A stretch of 64,000 nt of DNA, from the NCBI RefSeq assembly GCF_001424045.1, contig NZ_LMQB01000024.1, positions 186,001 through 250,000 on the forward strand, in the 5' to 3' direction. The position numbers were made by a program, and so were the translations under genes. Of this stretch, positions 54,279 through 64,000 are shown one piece after another. Within the stretch, counting starts at the first letter, position 1. Each line of letters opens with the position of its first letter. The stretch comes from Rhizobium sp. Leaf371 (GTDB lineage Bacteria > Pseudomonadota > Alphaproteobacteria > Rhizobiales > Rhizobiaceae). A model generated the notes under the pieces. It was not told the origin of the DNA, did no database searches, and saw nothing but the letters and a program-made list of their open reading frames with translations.

Positions 54279-55790
54279 TCACGCGAAGATCCCGTGCAGG
54301 AACCAGCGTTGCGAGCCGGTGGCCAAGTTCTCACCGTCGCCACTGCGGAACACCCAGAAGCGCTCGCCTGCCTCATCCTCCAGCGTGAAGTAGTCGCGCA
54401 CGGCCGCACTTTCGCTGTCGCGCTTCCACCATTCGCCGAACACACGTTCCGGCCCATCCGCCCGCTTGACGCGTCTCCGCTTGCCCCGCCAGGTAAACGA
54501 CACGGGCGGCTGGTCGGGCAGGAGCGCGATGACGTCGATCGGGTCGGGGTGCGCTAGAAGACGCGTCGGGCGCGGCCAGTGTAGCGTCCATGACTCCAGC
54601 ACATCGGCGGCGGCGGCCGCAATCCGGCGCACGCTACGTTCCGGCACGTCGCTGGCAACAGCCGCATAGCGGTAGACCCTGTGACCGCGATTGCCGAAGA
54701 TGTCGATCAACGGAGTGATGTCGCGATCGGTGTCATCGACAAGGGTTGATACGCTCTGCGTCTCCTCCAGCGGCTCCGCCATGACGGCGGCCAGCGACAG
54801 CTTCTCGATCCCAAAACCCGGCTCGATCTTTTCGGTGCGGTCGCGGAAGAGCTTTGTCAGCCAGGCGATGTCGCGCGCAGGTTTTGCCGTGCCCGCCCGG
54901 ATTGCCTGGCGCGTGCCGTCCACTTTCTCCACAAGGAGATCGGCACGCCGGATGCCAAGCCCCCTCTCCTGCAGCTTCTCCACGAGCGCCACCACCAGAC
55001 GACCGACATACTTGTCGATGGTCTCGGCGGCTCCGATGGGCTCGGCAAAGGAGCGCGAGACGACGATGAGGTCCGGCGTGCGGACAGGATCGATCGGCTC
55101 AGACACGCGGCCGAACATCTCATCAAGCCGGCGGCCGATCTCCGGGCCGAAGCGAAGCGCCAGCGGCGCACGCGGCGTGGCGGAAAGTTCGCCGATGGTG
55201 CGGAAGCCGAGCGTGCGCAGATCGAACACGGTCTTCTCGGGCAGCCGCAGCCGCGCGATCGGCAGACGCTCGACGGCTCTCGCTGTCTGGCCCGTGGGCA
55301 CGATCACGGTCTCGCGCGCGATGGTGCGGGCGCAGGCGTGCGCGGCACCCCAGGTATCGGCGATGGCGACGCGTGCCGTGAGGCCCTTTGGGCGGAAGCG
55401 GTTGGCGATCCCGGAGATCATCATCGCCTCGCCGCCCTGGAGATGATCGGCGCCTTCCGTGTCGAGCACGATGCCGTCGGTGCCATCCACGGCTACGACA
55501 GGCGAGTAGATCTTCAACGCCCAGAGCGACAACCGCTCGAGCGCCCGTGCGTCCGCCACCGAATCGGCATCCACCATCATCAGCCCGGAGAACAAGGCCT
55601 GCGCCTTGGCGGCAGCCATGCCGACCCGCACACCGGCGGCAACGGCTGCCGCATCCGCTGACGATACCCAGCGCTTGGCACCGCTTCGCGCGATCACCAC
55701 CACCGGCTGCTCAGGCGGAATATCCGGATCGTCGCGACGGATGCGATCGGTCGGTAGCGTCGGCAGATAGATGGATACGACCCTGGGCAT
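54279..55790 (-). CDS. imuB: Y-family polymerase-like protein ImuB
   Basis: A 503-residue protein with a Y-family layout but no normal catalytic acids: the palm reads [19 protein letters not shown] instead of the SxDE motif. The start is the ATG at 55788-55790, overlapping imuA by 80 bases. ImuB is a non-catalytic hub that binds the beta clamp, ImuA and DnaE2. It lies 10 bases upstream of dnaE2, giving the usual imuA-imuB-dnaE2 order. Confidence 0.92.
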
Positions 55791-56463
55791 CACAGGCTCC
55801 GACAGTAAATTCCGCGCATTCTCCCGATTTGACCCGCATCAGCTCCAGGAACCATTGCGGCCGGCCGACACCGGGAACCGGCAGCGCCACCGACGGCAGC
55901 ACGCTGACCCGCCACCGCGTGCTGGATGCCGTCGGCTGGCCGAAGTCATTGGCCTCCGTCTGCCGTCGCCATCGCCGCACCACGAGACCGAGCGTCCCGG
56001 ACTTCTCGGCGGCAAGCTGGAGCCGACGCGAGGCGGTCATTGGCAGGCGCACGAGTTCGCCGACCACGGCACCGAGACCGCCATGCGATAGGCCCTCTTC
56101 CATCGAAGCCAGCACGTCCTCCTCACGATCGACTTCCACGAAGACCACACGATTGGCATCGAGGCCCACCTGGGCAAGTGCCGGGAAGAACAGGTCCGGC
56201 CGCGTGAGGCACCAGACGACCTTGCCTTTCGTGCGGGCCGCGATCCCCGCGGCGAACAAGGCTGCCGCCGCACCGTCGACTGTGCCCGATCCGCCGCCGG
56301 CGATCTCGTGCAGCGCGCCACGGGCAAGACCGCCGCCCGGCAGAACGGCGTCGATCGCCAGCACGCCGAAGGGCAGCCAGCCGGCCTGACGCGGAACGCT
56401 GCATTCCAGCGTTGCGATCCGGTCGCGAAGCTCGGTGAGAACCTGTGCGCGGGCAGCCGTCAT
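55711..56463 (-). CDS. imuA: ImuA (SulA/RecA-like accessory of mutagenesis cassette)
   Basis: A 250-residue RecA-related protein that starts MTAARAQVLTELRDRIATLE. It contains LPFGVLAIDAVLPGGGLARG (around residues 30-49), as in the ImuA/SplB family, and a C-terminal segment ending in a basic tail. It supports DnaE2-ImuB translesion synthesis. It is the first gene of the cassette, with a LexA box 67 bases upstream. Confidence 0.9.
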   Translation of the reverse strand: MTAARAQVLTELRDRIATLECSVPRQAGWLPFGVLAIDAVLPGGGLARGALHEIAGGGSGTVDGAAAALFAAGIAARTKGKVVWCLTRPDLFFPALAQVGLDANRVVFVEVDREEDVLASMEEGLSHGGLGAVVGELVRLPMTASRRLQLAAEKSGTLGLVVRRWRRQTEANDFGQPTASSTRWRVSVLPSVALPVPGVGRPQWFLELMRVKSGECAEFTVGACDAQGRIHLSADATDRSHPSRRSGYSA

Positions 56464-56529
56464 CGATCACGCACTCCTTTCGAGATTTGCGGGTTACAAG
56501 CGCGGCATCATGCCGCTTACGAAGCTGAT

Positions 56530-56544
56530 GTTCATGACTTGTTC
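56530..56544. promoter_or_regulatory. LexA (SOS) box, perfect alphaproteobacterial consensus
   Basis: GTTC-ATGACTT-GTTC is an exact GTTC-N7-GTTC site. It is 67 bases upstream of imuA (minus) and 250 bases upstream of the SRAP gene (plus), so it controls imuAB-dnaE2 and could also affect SRAP. Confidence 0.9.
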
Positions 56545-56794
56545 TTTTTGAGATAGGAGTCAAGTCCGCGATGAATAGGAAAATAGTCGGAGGCGGACGT
56601 TCTGTGAGGAATCCGCTTTTGATTCAGAATGGTAAGTCGCGGACCACCTTCCGGATCATCAACAGGAAATGCGTCGGCCTGTGGAGGAGCGTCGCCGCTC
56701 ATTCGCATGGAGGCTGTTGCTCGCAAAATCGCGTCCGCGTGCTAGGATCGCCCGACCCGGCCTCTCGACCGGCCATTCCCATGGGAAGAGACAG

Positions 56795-57553
56795 ATGTGC
56801 AACCTCTACAACATCACGACGAACCAGGAGGCGATCCGCGCCTTTGCCAATGCTGCCCGTGACATCATCGGCAACATGGAGCCGTCGCTCGATGTCTACC
56901 CCGACCGGATGGCGCCGATCGTGCGCAATGCACCCGACGGCGTGCGCGAGCTTGCCTCCGTGCGCTGGGGCATGCCGAGTTCAAGCCAGGCGCTGTACGA
57001 GGCCGCGACCAAGCGGGCCGACAAGCTGCGCGCCAAGGGGAAGGACGTCGACTTCGACGCGCTGCTCAAACACGAGCCGGACGGTGGCACGACAAACGTG
57101 CGCAATACTGCAAGTCGCCACTGGAAGCGCTGGCTGGGCATCGAGAACCGCTGCGTCGTGCCGCTCACCCGCTTTGCCGAGCCGAACCCGGCCGGTAAAG
57201 TCGAAGGCGGACGCACGCCGAATGCCTGGTTTGCCGCCAACGCGAGTGAGCCGCTGATGTTCTTCGCCGGCATCTGGGTCAAGGACTGGACGAGCGTGCG
57301 CAAGGTCAAGGAAGGGCTGATCACCGCGGACTATCATGCCTTCCTTACCTGCCCGCCGAATGCGGTCGTCGGGCCGATCCACCCGAAGGCGATGCCGGTA
57401 ATCCTGACGACATCGGACGAGGTCGAGGCGTGGCTGACGCTGCCTTGGGCAGAGGCGAAGGCGCTGCAGCGTCCATTGCCGGAAGACCGGCTGGTTCTCC
57501 TCAATCCTCCTTCTGTTGACCGCGAGCTTGGCTCTGCTGACGCGTTATCGTAG
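56795..57553 (+). CDS. SOS response-associated peptidase (SRAP/YedK/HMCES family)
   Basis: A 252-residue protein that begins MCNLYNITTNQEAI: removal of Met exposes the catalytic Cys2 that forms a stable thiazolidine crosslink with abasic sites in single-stranded DNA. The conserved Glu and His (VGPIHPKAMPVIL) are present. Its function is protecting abasic sites at forks. It is divergent from imuA with the LexA box between them. The start was set at the Cys2-type ATG (56795). Confidence 0.92.
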   Translation: MCNLYNITTNQEAIRAFANAARDIIGNMEPSLDVYPDRMAPIVRNAPDGVRELASVRWGMPSSSQALYEAATKRADKLRAKGKDVDFDALLKHEPDGGTTNVRNTASRHWKRWLGIENRCVVPLTRFAEPNPAGKVEGGRTPNAWFAANASEPLMFFAGIWVKDWTSVRKVKEGLITADYHAFLTCPPNAVVGPIHPKAMPVILTTSDEVEAWLTLPWAEAKALQRPLPEDRLVLLNPPSVDRELGSADALS

Positions 57554-58108: not shown

Positions 58109-59164
58109 ATGGCGAGCAAACCCCTCAACCGTTCAAGACCAAAGCACCTCAGGACTGAGGCCGAAGCACCGCTTCGCAGCCAACGGCGAAACGCTCGTGA
58201 TCCCGCACAGCCTCAGTTGCCGCTCGACCTCATGCCGGAGCGGATCGAACCGTGCCTTGCCTTATTGACAGCCAAGCCACCTAAAGGACCGGACTGGGCC
58301 TACGAGGTGAAATGGGACGGCTATCGCGTCCACGTCCACAGCGAGCTCGGAGGTAACATCCGCATACTGACCCGTGGTGGCCATGACTGGACACATCGGT
58401 TTCCAGCAATCGAAAAAGCCGCGCTTGAACTTGGTCCGGCGACCATGATCCTCGATGGGGAGGTCGTCGTCCTCGACGAGCAGGGTCGCAGCGACTTCAA
58501 CGCTCTCGTCGCGTCGCTCGGCGGCCGCGGAGGTAAAAAGGTCGCGACGGACACGGTGCTGTACGCGTTCGACCTGCTCTACCTCGACGGCCACGACCTA
58601 TCCAAGCTCTCACTCGAGGAGCGCCGAATGCTTCTCGATCCGCTTCTCGAAAAGGCAGCCGGCGCTATCAGGCTTTCCGAGATGCTCGTTACCGACGGAG
58701 CGGCCCTGTTTGCGACAGCATGCGAACTGGGCCTTGAAGGCATTGTCGCAAAGCGATTAGACGCCCCGTACAGGTCAGGACGTGGTGGCGAGTGGAGGAA
58801 GATCAAATGCGTCCAGTCGGACACCTTCGTCGTAGTCGGCTATGAACCCTCGACCTCGTCGCCCGGCGCAATCGCCAGCTTGCTGCTCGGTGCTCGCAAG
58901 GGTGATGCGCTGGTTTATGTCGGCTCCGTAGGGACGGGTTTTACGGACAGGGATGCACGCGAACTGATGGACAGACTAAATGCGATGCGCACGAAGCGGC
59001 CAGCCGTCGCCGTGAAGGGAAAGTCCCTGGTGTTCGTAGAACCGATACTCGCAGCCGAGATTGAATACCGTGCCTGGACGGGCGACGGGAAACTTCGTCA
59101 CGCGAGCTACAAGGGTCTGCGAGATGCCGAGGATACCACCGACGTGTACATTTTCGAAGGTTGA
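58109..59164 (+). CDS. ATP-dependent DNA ligase, LigD ligase-domain type
   Basis: A 351-residue ligase. The nucleotidyl-transfer motif is WAYEVKWDGYRV (catalytic Lys near residue 71), motif III is LYAFDLLYLDGHDL, motif IV is LEGIVAKRLDAPYRSG and motif V is WRKIKC. The second half is the OB fold ending VFVEPILAAEIEY. There is no polymerase or phosphoesterase domain as in full LigD, and no ku in the window, so it is a stand-alone bacterial NHEJ-type or LigC-like ligase. The N-terminal ~35 residues are basic and probably disordered. Confidence 0.9.
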   Translation: MASKPLNRSRPKHLRTEAEAPLRSQRRNARDPAQPQLPLDLMPERIEPCLALLTAKPPKGPDWAYEVKWDGYRVHVHSELGGNIRILTRGGHDWTHRFPAIEKAALELGPATMILDGEVVVLDEQGRSDFNALVASLGGRGGKKVATDTVLYAFDLLYLDGHDLSKLSLEERRMLLDPLLEKAAGAIRLSEMLVTDGAALFATACELGLEGIVAKRLDAPYRSGRGGEWRKIKCVQSDTFVVVGYEPSTSSPGAIASLLLGARKGDALVYVGSVGTGFTDRDARELMDRLNAMRTKRPAVAVKGKSLVFVEPILAAEIEYRAWTGDGKLRHASYKGLRDAEDTTDVYIFEG

Positions 59165-59328: not shown

Positions 59329-61242
59329 TTAACCAATGTCCAAGGACATCTGCTTCTCACTGTATTTTTGACCGACTGTATATTTTGGGTCTTCCAAAGC
59401 ACCGTCAGGCATTGACGTCGTGAAAATAATTTGGTGTTCAACCTTCATTTCTTGGCTCCATTTCAATATAACGCGTTGGAAGTTGTGGCTTCGCGCCTCG
59501 GTCATCCCTTTATCTTCGATGTTGTCCAAGAGCGCGAATCTTGGATACTTCATGCGCTGGTCCAGGCAGGAGGCGAACACCAGTGCCAAGTGAAAAGCGT
59601 TTTTGATGATAGTGGCGGAGCTTGCTGAGTAGCCGCGCTTGTCATTGACTACGATATCGTTGTCACCGAAGTTGAATCTCACCCCGAATTCATCGACAGG
59701 CTCTATATCACTCGGTAAGTCGTCCTCAAGTATTTTAGCCGTCAATCGCGATATCAGACCATATATAGACGCCTGCCGCTTCTCTCGGGCCGCTATCCAG
59801 CCTGCAATATCCCGCTTCAGGTTCGTCAGCGTGTCGTTGAGCTTTTCCTTCCGCTGGGCAAGCTCGGTCACCTCGGCTGCCAGACGGCGTTCGCGCTCCA
59901 GATCGACAAGCTCCCTGTCGAGATATCCGACCGATCGGGTCAGCTCCTCGATCTTTGCGTCGGCTTCGGTTAGATAGTGTCGCGATCGTGTCAGGAGTTC
60001 TTCGGAAAGGGTATTGCGTACCCGATACATCCCGCTGAGCTGAGCCTTAAGAGCAGCGCGGTCCGTTTCTCGCGTTACCTGAAGGGACCTCGATTCCTTA
60101 AGCTGCATTTCCACCTCGTTGCGCAAACGTGCATACCGAGACTGATTATAGGTCTCATCGAGGCCCGTCTTGCAAAGATGGCATTGATGACCGTCCGGAG
60201 ACGGCTCGACCGAAGAAAGGCAACTGGGGCAGAAGGAAAAAACGAAAGGTGCAAGCGACTCTCCAGTCGCCTGCGATTGGTCTATCTGCTTCAGGTTCTT
60301 TTCAAGGTCCGAGATCAAAAGAGCGGCGTCTTCGATCGCAAGAGCGAGGCGATCGAGACTACGCTGTGTGGCGACCACGTCGCGGCTGACTTTGTCCAGA
60401 TCACGGCGAAGCGCTTCGATCACGGACGAACTGTCGTCCTCGGCTTGTCCTCGTTCATATCTCGACGCGCGGAGGTTTTCGATCTCCTGGAGGATGGAAA
60501 CACGCTTGGCTTCGACTTCTTCGGTTCTATTGATGAGATCCGAGAAGTCGAGCTTCTCGTCAACACGCCGAAGGACCTTCAGTAGGGCGGTAAAGGAGCT
60601 CGTGACTTCAGAATATTCACGATCAAGCTGTCGAGCCAAGATCTGACTGGGGTAAATGCGATCGTCAAGAACGCCGCAAAGCAGATCGCCGATGGCTTGA
60701 CGCCTATTCGCGGCATCTCGATCTTCCATTCGGAATATCGCATTCACCGGGGTCATCTGATCCACATACATCAGCCTGAGGAGCTGGTGCATCGTGATAT
60801 TGGCTTCGTCCGATGGGACTTCGGGCATTGTAAGCGCCGTAAACAGAACCTGGCTGAAGCCCATTCGCTCGAGGTATCGGGAGTAGGGCAACTTCATCCA
60901 CCCCTCGACCGCACTCGCGTTCGCCTCCTCGAAGGTGCCAAAAAACACCCACATCGGTAACTGGGAAGCTGTCGTCGATATCTCGCGACGCAATGTGACC
61001 AGCGAACCGTTGAGTGCAACCTCCGCGAAGGTCTGATCGCACATTCCTGCTTCGCGCTTCCAATCCAGAAGGTTGCCGCCTAGCGCGAAGAAGATGAGGT
61101 CCGCAATCGTCGACTTGCCACGGCTGTTTCCATCGCTTCGGATCATGTTGACGCCAGGATGGAATGTCTCGTCGTAGGCGGTTTTTCCGGACTTGGTCAC
61201 AACCAGCCTGATCAGCCTTAGCGATGGGTCACGTCGGATCAT
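59329..61242 (-). CDS. ABC-3C system ATPase (Rad50/SMC-like with zinc hook)
   Basis: A 637-residue ABC ATPase. Walker A is SDGNSRGKSTIADL (residues 35-48), then coiled-coil arms with a zinc-hook-like middle (CPSC, then CHLC near 350-370). The C-terminal lobe has an atypical signature YSASSATIIKNAF and a Walker B-like ALLDNIEDKG. This matches the ATPase of ABC-three-component systems, predicted anti-invader complexes in which an SMC-like ATPase joins a middle component and an effector-like C-terminal-domain protein. It overlaps the preceding gene by 14 bases and ends the operon. Confidence 0.82.
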   Translation of the reverse strand: MIRRDPSLRLIRLVVTKSGKTAYDETFHPGVNMIRSDGNSRGKSTIADLIFFALGGNLLDWKREAGMCDQTFAEVALNGSLVTLRREISTTASQLPMWVFFGTFEEANASAVEGWMKLPYSRYLERMGFSQVLFTALTMPEVPSDEANITMHQLLRLMYVDQMTPVNAIFRMEDRDAANRRQAIGDLLCGVLDDRIYPSQILARQLDREYSEVTSSFTALLKVLRRVDEKLDFSDLINRTEEVEAKRVSILQEIENLRASRYERGQAEDDSSSVIEALRRDLDKVSRDVVATQRSLDRLALAIEDAALLISDLEKNLKQIDQSQATGESLAPFVFSFCPSCLSSVEPSPDGHQCHLCKTGLDETYNQSRYARLRNEVEMQLKESRSLQVTRETDRAALKAQLSGMYRVRNTLSEELLTRSRHYLTEADAKIEELTRSVGYLDRELVDLERERRLAAEVTELAQRKEKLNDTLTNLKRDIAGWIAAREKRQASIYGLISRLTAKILEDDLPSDIEPVDEFGVRFNFGDNDIVVNDKRGYSASSATIIKNAFHLALVFASCLDQRMKYPRFALLDNIEDKGMTEARSHNFQRVILKWSQEMKVEHQIIFTTSMPDGALEDPKYTVGQKYSEKQMSLDIG

Positions 61243-61726
61243 ATCGAAACTCCATCAACTTCGACCGCGCTTTTAGGCCCTCTTTGCCAAGCAGTGGGAC
61301 GGTTGCGATTTTTGTTCCCAGATATCCGGCCAAATCCAGGTCTTCGGGCGTAGCGTGCCTCAGCAATTCATCAGGCACCAGATTCTCCGTACGCTTCACT
61401 ATGCCCACCTTTAGGGCATCGCCTGAGATCAGCTCTCGGCCAGCCAAGGCGGCGACGATCAGCTTATGCAGACCTTTGGACTGCGCCAGAAACGTCTTCG
61501 GAGACGGCAATGTGTTGAACCGGGACGCGGTGCCTGCCAGCTTCCTGCCCTTCACTCCAGCACCTTTCGGAAACTCCAGATCGGCGAGCAGGTATGGAAA
61601 GACATAATAGAGATCGACAATCCTTAGGGTATCCGTCGGCATGGATTTGCCTGGTGTGTTTTCCAGAATCAGGAGAGCACGGAAGACACCATGGTAGACG
61701 TCGAAAGCGGGATGATAAACTAACAT
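61229..61726 (-). CDS. ABC-3C middle component
   Basis: A 165-residue protein that starts MLVYHPAFDVYHGVFRALLI (a GTG nine bases earlier is in frame). The ATG (61724-61726) overlaps the stop of the previous gene, which supports it. The sequence continues RIVDLYYVFPYLLADLEFP and LLRHATPEDLDLAGYLGTK, with no catalytic motif. Size, charge and place between the CTD-type gene and the ATPase fit the ABC-3C middle component. It probably bridges ATPase and effector. Confidence 0.75.
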   Translation of the reverse strand: MLVYHPAFDVYHGVFRALLILENTPGKSMPTDTLRIVDLYYVFPYLLADLEFPKGAGVKGRKLAGTASRFNTLPSPKTFLAQSKGLHKLIVAALAGRELISGDALKVGIVKRTENLVPDELLRHATPEDLDLAGYLGTKIATVPLLGKEGLKARSKLMEFRYDPT

Positions 61727-62337
61727 CAGTCCCACCTAATGTGGCAGTTGCCGGTCAGGAAATAGATCATGCCGCGGACGTAATCTATCGAGACATCCTC
61801 AAACTGAGGGCAGTCATCGAGTTCGTTTGCAATGGGTACAGTTATATTTTTCGAGACGGTCTGATCCACCAATGATGCATCCACACCTGCATCGATCAGG
61901 TGGCGCACCTGTGAATCGAAACGCTCGTGGATTCTCGCCATCAGCGTCGCCACAATCAGTTGGTATGCCGGCGAAAACTGGTTCGCTTTGATTTCCCCAT
62001 AGACGTTCTCCTTGAGAGCTTTCGCCAACTGCACTTGTCGCTCCCTGTTCGCCAAGACGAGCTTCGCCTCTAACCCGATCACATCCTCGTTTTCGACCTG
62101 TCGGGTGTAGACTTCGAGTTGCCGAATGTAAGAGTTCAAGACCTTGTCTTCAGCAGCTTCCCTCTCCAACCTGGAGAATAGCTTCCGGAAGACGTTGGTG
62201 GACTTCGGGGCAGGTTGCATATCAGGCGCGGCGTTGTAGATATTGACGTCACCACCGTTCGCATAGACGTCTTTGCCGCCCATGTGGCCGCCGACCTTAT
62301 TCTTGGTCTGTGATGTGGTCAGGCCATTCGAAGGCAT
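61726..62337 (-). CDS. ABC-3C C-terminal-domain-type component
   Basis: A 203-residue protein (a TTG at 62352 is an alternative start). The first ~30 residues hold a glycine motif KVGGHMGGKDVYANGG and DVNIYNA. Then follows a helical domain with RLEREAAEDKVLNSYIRQLE. The C-terminal part reads RGMIYFLTGNCHIRWD. The gene order (this gene, middle component, ATPase) and the last domain match ABC-3C partners. The same glycine motif is found in the small membrane protein upstream. Confidence 0.7.
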   Translation of the reverse strand: MPSNGLTTSQTKNKVGGHMGGKDVYANGGDVNIYNAAPDMQPAPKSTNVFRKLFSRLEREAAEDKVLNSYIRQLEVYTRQVENEDVIGLEAKLVLANRERQVQLAKALKENVYGEIKANQFSPAYQLIVATLMARIHERFDSQVRHLIDAGVDASLVDQTVSKNITVPIANELDDCPQFEDVSIDYVRGMIYFLTGNCHIRWD

Positions 62338-62402
62338 CGGAACAACGCTCAACGCAGTCCCAGCTAGAATGCTTGGCTCATCCTGATCGTCTTCGATGGC
62401 CG

Positions 62403-62603
62403 TCAGTCTCTCGTCACATGGGTATCGCGGCCGGACAGGTTTCCGCCGACCTTGTTACCGCTTTGATTGACGGCTCCCTGGCTGTTCCGGGCCACCGAGG
62501 TCACGGAGTTTTTCCGTTTGCTTGAATCGAAGCGAATTTTGATGACAACGCCTGCCCCTAGTCCCGCTAAGAACGTTATGATGTGCCCGATTATGTCCTG
62601 CAT
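62403..62603 (-). CDS. Small membrane protein with shared KVGG motif (ABC-3C-linked)
   Basis: A 66-residue protein (start ATG 62601-62603; GTG at 62609 also possible) with a TM helix at residues 4-21, a basic step (KIRFDSSKRKN) and an exposed tail with SGNKVGGNLSGRD. That tail resembles the N-terminal motif of the neighbouring C-terminal-domain protein. It is 65 bases upstream on the same strand and is probably the first gene of the operon. It may tether the complex at the membrane. Confidence 0.65.
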   Translation of the reverse strand: MQDIIGHIITFLAGLGAGVVIKIRFDSSKRKNSVTSVARNSQGAVNQSGNKVGGNLSGRDTHVTRD

Positions 62604-63205: not shown

Positions 63206-63210
63206 ATGGA
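63172..63210 (+). promoter_or_regulatory. ars promoter with ArsR operator overlapping the start codon
   Basis: TTGACA (63172-63177) and TAATAC (63194-63199), 16-base spacing, are a strong promoter. A perfect 10-base inverted repeat, TCCATGTATC (63181-63190) and GATACATGGA (63201-63210), spans the -10 element and includes the arsR ATG (63206-63208). ArsR dimers would block RNA polymerase here until arsenite binds. Confidence 0.85.
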
Positions 63211-63565
63211 ATCAGAGAAAGCCATCGCGGCACTTGCCGCCCTTGCCCAATCCACCCGCCTCGACACCTTCCGGCTGCTGGTCCGCCATGAACCGGAGGG
63301 CGTACCCGCCGGTGAACTTGCCCGCCTGCTCGGCGTGCCGCAGAACACCATGTCGGCCCACCTCGCGATCCTGTCGCGCGCTGGGCTGATCAAAGGCGAG
63401 CGCCATAGCCGCTCGATAATCTACCGCGCCGAGATCGACGCCCTTCGCGACCTGACCCTCTACCTGGTCAAGGACTGCTGCGGCGGCAGCGCTGAACTAT
63501 GCGCGCCTATCATCACCGCTCTCACCCCCTGCTGCGACCCGTCCGCTCCGGAGAACCTGCAATGA
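63206..63565 (+). CDS. arsR: ArsR-family arsenic-responsive repressor
   Basis: A 119-residue winged-helix regulator: helix-turn-helix LARLLGVPQNTMSAHLAILS and wing RHSRSIIYRAE. It has Cys residues in a C-terminal cluster: C91-C92, C99, and C109-C110, which should bind As(III)/Sb(III), a layout of the C-terminal-site ArsR type instead of the N-terminal ELCVCDL site. The ATG is within the operator and there is no Shine-Dalgarno site. The stop overlaps the arsC ATG (ATGA). Confidence 0.9.
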   Translation: MESEKAIAALAALAQSTRLDTFRLLVRHEPEGVPAGELARLLGVPQNTMSAHLAILSRAGLIKGERHSRSIIYRAEIDALRDLTLYLVKDCCGGSAELCAPIITALTPCCDPSAPENLQ

Positions 63566-64000
63566 CCACCGACCGCGTCTACAACGTGCTGTTCCTGTGC
63601 ACCGGCAATTCCGCCCGCTCGATCATTGCCGAGTCCATCCTCAACGGCGAAGGGAAAGGGCGCTTCAAGGCCTATTCGGCCGGAAGCCAGCCCAAAGGCC
63701 AGGTGCACCCGCTGGCCCTCGATACACTGCGCGCCCTCGGCTACGAGTCCACCGGCTTCCGCTCAAAGACCTGGGACGAGTTCGCCGAACCCGGCGCACC
63801 GCAGATGGATTTCATATTCACCGTCTGCGACAACGCCGCTGGCGAAGCCTGCCCGGTGTGGCTCGGCCACCCGATGACCGCTCACTGGGGCGTCGAGGAC
63901 CCGGCCGCCGTGGAAGGCACCGAGATCGAGAAGGGCCAGGCATTCTCCAAGGCCGCGCGCTTCCTCAAGAACCGGATCTCGGCGTTCCTGAGCCTGCCGC
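63562..64000 (+). CDS. arsC: Arsenate reductase, low-molecular-weight phosphatase type (partial)
   Basis: The first 146 residues of an arsenate reductase; the frame is open at the right edge. The P-loop is FLCTGNSARS (Cys13, Arg19). The resolving Cys pair C89 and C97 (TVCDNAAGEACPVW) and the DPAAVEG motif match the thioredoxin-coupled ArsC class that reduces As(V) to As(III). It is coupled to arsR by a four-base overlap. An arsenite exporter is expected to follow. Confidence 0.92.
   Translation, partial: MTTDRVYNVLFLCTGNSARSIIAESILNGEGKGRFKAYSAGSQPKGQVHPLALDTLRALGYESTGFRSKTWDEFAEPGAPQMDFIFTVCDNAAGEACPVWLGHPMTAHWGVEDPAAVEGTEIEKGQAFSKAARFLKNRISAFLSLP

Follow-up and report, generated by a model that had tools for sequence, protein, structure and literature searches.

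Operon organisation

A 64,000-nucleotide stretch of the Rhizobium sp. Leaf371 genome (contig NZ_LMQB01000024.1, positions 186,001 to 250,000), called the window throughout, contains a four-gene operon at positions 59,329 to 62,603, and the proteins of this operon and their relatives in other genomes are the subject of this study. All four genes lie on the minus strand and encode a small transmembrane (TM) protein, a CTD9 protein, an MC5 protein and an SMC/LmuB-like ATPase. The genes and two copies of a glycine-rich motif are as follows.

62403..62603, minus strand: TM micro-protein of 66 amino acids (ATG at 62603, stop ending at 62403)
62424..62453, minus strand: motif copy 1, KVGGNLSGRD, residues 51-60 of the TM protein (seen in the sequence and in alignments)
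61726..62352, minus strand: CTD9 protein (PF20285), starting at TTG 62352 or ATG 62337
62269..62298, minus strand: motif copy 2, KVGGHMGGKD, in the N-terminus of the CTD9 protein (seen in the sequence; 8.5 bits with a profile trained on TM tails)
61229..61726, minus strand: middle component MC5, in an LmuC-like position (ATG at 61726; PF20291, E 1e-33)
59329..61242, minus strand: SMC/Rad50-like ABC ATPase (LmuB-like) of 637 amino acids with a zinc hook (PADLOC LmuB match and motifs)

The CTD9 and MC5 genes overlap by 1 base (TGATG) and the MC5 and ATPase genes by 14 bases, and the gap between the TM and CTD9 genes measures 65 bases from ATG 62337 or 50 bases from TTG 62352. The gene arrangement described in the initial annotation, an earlier reading of this DNA, was confirmed on the sequence, its 65-base gap requiring the ATG start, and the motif that it assigned to both the TM tail and the CTD N-terminus is present at both places. 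Its proposal of homology to ABC-three-component (ABC-3C) systems was borne out by profile hidden Markov models: the middle protein matches PF20291 (MC5) with 116.9 bits against a cut-off of 25, and the second protein matches PF20285 (CTD9) with 110.7 bits against a cut-off of 27.9 (E 7.2e-32). The ATPase matches PADLOC LmuB (PDLC03862, E 6.6e-39) and retains the P-loop (NSRGKST), the CPSC and CHLC pairs of the hook, the SASS signature and DNIEDKGM (DxxEDKGM). An SMC/Rad50-like ABC ATPase gene adjoins MC and CTD genes, the arrangement by which ABC-3C systems are recognised, and these sequence matches place the operon in the MC5+CTD9 branch of the ABC-3C/Lamassu type.

Related loci and effector formats

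An alignment of six ATPases was scanned against genome contigs and the best 80 of the 163 relatives were taken, which together with the window and eight further relatives gave a set of 89 loci (numbered with L below). MC5 was matched in 89/89 loci and CTD9 in 88/89, the exception (L040) lying at a contig end. The loci fall into three formats: a small TM open reading frame (ORF) upstream together with the motif in the CTD9 N-terminus in 58/89, CTD9 fused behind a serine-esterase-like domain in 23/89, and bare CTD9 with a different multi-TM gene after the ATPase in 5/89, all of one clade. The format of three loci cut by contig ends (L025, L040, L075) was not judged. With one of these three arrangements at each remaining locus, every judged operon has one recognisable candidate effector. 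The fourth component beside CTD9 that the initial annotation had proposed is therefore conserved in the 58 loci, and the remaining 31 comprise 28 with a different candidate effector and the 3 that are cut.

A few assignments were made individually. The esterase of L091 lies in a separate upstream frame and was counted as fused, and the TM ORF of L047, just below the hydropathy cut, was added by hand. A TM fragment at a contig end (L021) is counted among the 58 and in the tree and is outside the 55 loci used for the motif analyses, and L037 and L042, which repeat L017 and L018, were excluded from motif and tree statistics. A hydrophobic ORF of L100 was rejected as a TM gene, being out of frame and lacking the motif.

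Among the fused proteins, the three searched against Pfam gave DUF676, Abhydrolase_6 and PGAP1-like matches; by BLAST, each of the 23 fused N-termini has a match to one of these three esterase-type N-termini, and 21/23 contain the sequence HSLGG. PADLOC names the esterase part DUF626_VIII in two of these loci tested and gives one weak LmuA match (fused loci L028, L065, L031 and 20 more), so this fused Lamassu-like branch may be under-called. At the ATPase stop of all five bare loci, either overlapping it or starting no more than about 10 bases away, there is a frame of 225-250 codons that contains two or three hydrophobic segments; the other 84 loci yielded no homologue of this gene. The multi-TM proteins at the ATPase stop of bare-CTD9 operons are located as follows.

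L013: 9288-10001
L092: 6916-7581
L020: 8462-9157
L100: 6918-7598
L019: 8324-9074 (reverse complement)
L118: 3400-4092

The proteins of this family, of about 220-250 amino acids, had no significant Pfam match in the three tested, occur in the set only at bare-CTD9 operons and gave no credible match in a fold search; they are probably another membrane effector of the MC5+CTD9 branch.

A motif-profile search of ORFs across the available locus sequence found a motif-bearing TM ORF in 0/23 fused and 0/5 bare loci, and the same search recovers 56/57 TM loci, largely by construction. A sample of 15 loci from viral contigs comprised 10 with TM gene and motif, 1 fused, 3 cut and 1 bare, the last again followed by the multi-TM gene; the CTD motif of L117, L124 and L125, the TM protein of L124 and the fused domain of L114 were judged by eye in this sample. 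One viral locus of the TM format (L119) does not differ from L043 across the 4 kb that were compared. With the TM alignment, matches were obtained in 5/397 genomes of the order (E <=0.001) and in 4/398 of the phylum (E <=0.01), at most 15 candidates being scored per genome. The order and phylum matches all lie beside CTD9 except that of genome G383. The G383 match (E 0.007) was discarded as noise, being a low-complexity frame with no CTD9, MC5, ATPase or tail-motif match in the surrounding 11 kb. The TM model missed one divergent locus (G237), which was found with CTD9.

The distribution of the formats was examined on an ATPase tree of 84 loci, which was built by a quick method and on which long branches were flagged. 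The TM format occurs in Pseudomonadota, Thermodesulfobacteriota, Verrucomicrobiota, Bacteroidota and Fibrobacterota, a span which shows that the TM gene has been retained over a long time. The fused format forms one side of a branch with support 96, and the bare format forms one side of a branch with support 94, beside TM relatives.

The glycine motif and its covariation

The TM tails have the consensus VxQSGxxxGGDxVGRDK (30 sequences aligned) and the CTD9 N-termini the consensus QxxxxAxGDxxGRD (55 sequences). A motif profile was trained on the 55 TM tails alone, that of the window included, and applied to the partner CTD9 N-termini; for L072, whose CTD motif lies in a separate upstream frame, that piece alone was scored. 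The score of the window CTD N-terminus compares with 5.7 bits at the 99.9th percentile and 10.9 bits at the maximum of 11,000 shuffled CTD N-termini. Partner N-termini exceed 99.9% of these shuffles in 51/55 loci and 99% in 52/55, and the profile finds 0/23 fused and 0/5 bare CTD9 proteins. The motif is thus common to both partners, as first proposed for the window.

The two copies also vary together. In tests on 45 of the 55 loci, chosen at <80% mutual ATPase identity, cognate pairs of TM tail and CTD9 N-terminus had a mean score of 59.3 versus 34.7 for non-cognate pairs, and 0/20,000 permutations reached the observed mean; the cognate partner is in the top five for 30/45 TM tails. As a control for descent, partners were swapped among nearest ATPase neighbours, and the cognate pair was favoured in 40/45 loci with two neighbours, 42/45 with three and 43/45 with five. 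A partial Mantel test that controlled for ATPase identity gave r 0.45 between the similarity of TM tails and that of CTD9 N-termini (0/2000 permutations), whereas the control correlations of the TM helix were -0.03 with the CTD9 motif, -0.04 with the CTD9 domain and 0.02 with its own tail. Divergent motifs also match within a locus, with GDQIAGNK in both proteins of L070, GDxVLGDK in both of L084, and SIVNGN facing NIVNGN in L124. The motif copies therefore covary within loci beyond descent, and such covariation is the trace that a homotypic contact would leave.

Features of the proteins

The TM protein has a hydrophobic segment at its N-terminus, a positively charged flank and the motif-bearing tail. 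Among the 55 TM proteins, 52 have one hydrophobic segment, two have two and one has none above the cut. The motif tail is probably cytoplasmic, because positive charge is greater in the C-terminal than in the N-terminal flank in 50/54 TM proteins. In the set of 45, 27 TM helices contain GxxxG, against a mean of 12.2 after shuffling, and 23 contain extended glycine zippers, against a mean of 4.3; 0/2000 shuffles reach either count. Glycine zippers favour helix packing. The TM ORF behaves as a gene, with 112, 72 and 347 differences at codon positions 1, 2 and 3 in codon alignments of 12 related TM gene pairs.

No family was found for the window TM protein in Pfam, PADLOC or NCBIfam, and only two of 30 TM proteins searched against Pfam match any family, one family each, at E of about 0.01. 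It does match phrog_17975, a viral-protein family of unknown function for which no operon context is given (E 2.8e-9), as do 5/30 TM proteins scanned. An antifreeze repeat was the best PDB row for the TM alignment (E 4e-4) and was rejected as compositional, 0 stretches passing alone. The TM partners of L014, L076, L084 and L117 are longer than most, with 97-112 amino acids as read, and have a divergent motif variant resembling that of the cognate CTD9 N-terminus.

The CTD9 protein was modelled from 55 sequences, with a mean predicted local distance difference test score of 80.1. The model is helical from residue 54 onward; residues 1-53 are without secondary structure and of low confidence, with 10-residue means of 51-63 up to residue 50. 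No Pfam domain was found in the N-terminus of the window protein, nor was the N-terminal effector domain that is typical (not universal) of ABC-3C, and no other candidate effector was seen in the protein by Pfam or in the structure model. When the model was compared with PDB folds, Lamassu chains (9uxh, 9uxl, 9nxx) ranked 3, 9, 13 and 27, all with E >1; they hold the three highest probabilities (0.38, 0.28 and 0.25) among the 50 Foldseek rows shown, in which nothing is significant.

PADLOC LmuA and LmuC gave no match for the CTD9 or MC5 protein, and the PDB sequence search found no credible relative of either, and weak similarity of the ATPase to Rad50 and to a coiled-coil stretch. The CTD protein as a single-sequence query found no relative in the genome contigs, and a phage search gave no match for MC5 or for an ATPase. 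In its own genome the operon DNA is present in a single copy, as is the TM family, whose three other matches all have E >2. The lead of the P-loop in the window ATPase (about 61107-61140) is one residue longer, RSDGNSRGKST versus RGDNSSGKST, a feature shared with its nearest relatives (L021-L023).

Proposed mechanism and alternatives

We propose, with a probability of about 0.6, that this is an ABC-3C/Lamassu-type immune operon whose effector is a separate one-helix membrane micro-protein, recruited through the motif and breaching the inner membrane. In the TM class the effector slot of CTD9 is empty but for the motif, and the same motif ends the neighbouring membrane protein; from this we infer an effector in trans, recruited by homotypic motif assembly. 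The LmuB-like ATPase and MC5 would sense foreign DNA and hold CTD9, which would be released or clustered upon activation. The exposed N-terminal motifs of CTD9 could then recruit the cytoplasmic tails of TM proteins by homotypic beta-type, possibly amyloid-like, assembly, and the glycine-zipper helices, packed together, would breach the inner membrane and bring about abortive infection. According to the available text of one study (PMC12904381), the SMC-like subunit of Lamassu is believed to detect DNA ends or unusual structures in DNA and to activate the effector.

Several observations weigh against this proposal. The three formats can be explained by two state changes on the ATPase tree, so the either/or pattern of effectors rests on two evolutionary switches only. 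A small hydrophobic ORF lies upstream in 5/23 fused loci, in each case lacking the motif, and in three of the fused contigs (L062, L066, L089) the sequence upstream of the fused frame is <300 bases long. Four of the 55 CTD9 N-termini are below the 99.9% shuffle threshold, three of them (L014, L076, L084) also below 99%. The cognate partner ranks first for only 16/45 TM tails and is favoured over the single nearest ATPase neighbour in only 31/45 loci, and the correlation of the TM tail with the CTD9 domain is not quite zero (r 0.12, reached by 32/2000 permutations). The helix and motif shuffle tests treat related sequences as independent. Finally, the motif profile gave no match to either of two BASS3-type peptides, whose scores were reached by 932/5000 and 565/5000 shuffles.

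It is quite possible, if short of probable, that the TM effector is held by ordinary stoichiometric docking of the glycine motifs, such as beta-strand addition, with no amyloid-like templating: the motif is short and usually single in each protein, and the BASS3-type peptides had no significant score. That the motifs of the two partners are identical or almost so would, however, be expected of homotypic assembly and not of a receptor-ligand pair, and the gene layout equals that of amyloid-signalling pairs as the available text of two studies describes it (PMC5485727, PMC7889193). The amyloid step is put forward as a hypothesis, and its full form, in which an SMC-like DNA sensor in place of an NLR triggers cell death by amyloid-type templating from CTD9 to a one-helix membrane killer, is offered tentatively.

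The initial annotation took the TM protein for a membrane tether. A constitutive anchor, holding the complex of the ATPase on the inner membrane close to incoming DNA while the output is something else, would suit a single helix with a probably cytoplasmic motif tail and a matched motif pair. Against it, no motif-bearing TM ORF was found in the 23 fused loci of the branch, a different membrane protein takes its place in one clade, encoded at the ATPase stop, and the window CTD9 protein has no other candidate effector. We therefore consider a passive tether unlikely. The TM protein looks like an effector supplied in trans, a role that fits better because the motif-bearing TM protein was found only where CTD9 has no fused effector and the ATPase is not followed by an alternative membrane gene.

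A protective or inhibitory, antitoxin-like partner of the ATPase complex could also be encoded by a small upstream gene, which in several loci overlaps the CTD9 start by 4 bases, but the TM gene occurs instead of fused effectors and not beside them, which makes this role very unlikely. An old local duplication might also have left similar motifs that have no binding role, as adjacent genes and a short motif could suggest; this is very unlikely given TM-class loci in five phyla, parallel changes of the motif in the two genes without such an excess for the TM helix, and divergent matched variants in L014, L076, L070, L081, L084 and L124.

Comparison with known systems

The window operon shares with ABC-3C systems of the MC5+CTD9 type the gene order CTD, MC, ATPase and both Pfam families, far above the cut-offs, and differs in that CTD9 has no effector domain and a fourth gene encodes a TM protein. 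In three plasmid records the annotation of the CTD9 gene reads 'ABC-three component system protein', to which two add 'middle component 5', and the TM gene is annotated only as 'hypothetical protein' in NZ_CP110833. The likeness to Lamassu/DdmABC (LmuA, LmuC, LmuB) lies in the LmuB-matching ATPase with its zinc hook. Fused enzymatic effectors are the described rule in Lamassu in the available text of PMC10586767, where LmuA normally has an enzymatic N-terminal domain and the list of such domains holds no TM effector. The fused clade of the MC5+CTD9 branch has this fused-enzyme design in its CTD9 protein. No description of a TM partner of CTD9 was found in the ABC-3C, Lamassu and amyloid literature searched, of which coverage was partial.

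The TM-partnered operon matches, by analogy, the gene-pair layout of amyloid-signalling NLR/effector pairs, with an SMC-like sensor instead. As far as they are described in the available text of PMC7889193 and PMC5485727, the BASS (NLR and BELL) and fungal NWD2/HET-S-type pairs likewise consist of adjacent genes, have the motif at the N-terminus of the receptor and at the C-terminus of a membrane-active effector (a status that is putative for the TM protein), and have the motif in place of an effector domain. In contrast to BASS, the receptor here would be an SMC-like ABC-3C complex (CTD9, MC5 and ATPase) and not an NLR, and the proposed effector is a protein of about 50-130 amino acids as read, mostly with one hydrophobic segment. 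BASS2 motifs are said to end in ARD in the available text of PMC9815663, and the motif here mostly ends in GRD, a weak lead.

If the amyloid hypothesis holds, amyloid signalling would be a transferable means of coupling that immune sensors of unrelated kinds can use, in five bacterial phyla or more. Under the proposed mechanism, ABC-3C/Lamassu systems would gain a fourth component with a concrete task, the action of a CTD protein that has no enzymatic domain could be explained, and a family described so far by its fused enzymes would acquire an output aimed at the membrane. For tests of specificity, the covarying motif pairs form a ready set.

Genomic neighbourhood

The operon is adjoined by a neighbourhood of DNA-damage type (54279-57553 and 58109-59164), which stands next to a predicted DNA-sensing operon and encodes an IMS-family (ImuB-like) protein, a neighbour without a Pfam match, an SRAP protein and an ATP-dependent DNA ligase. 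On the other side, at 63206-63999, a small helix-turn-helix regulator is followed by a low-molecular-weight phosphatase-type protein, an arrangement that looks like the beginning of an arsenic-resistance operon.

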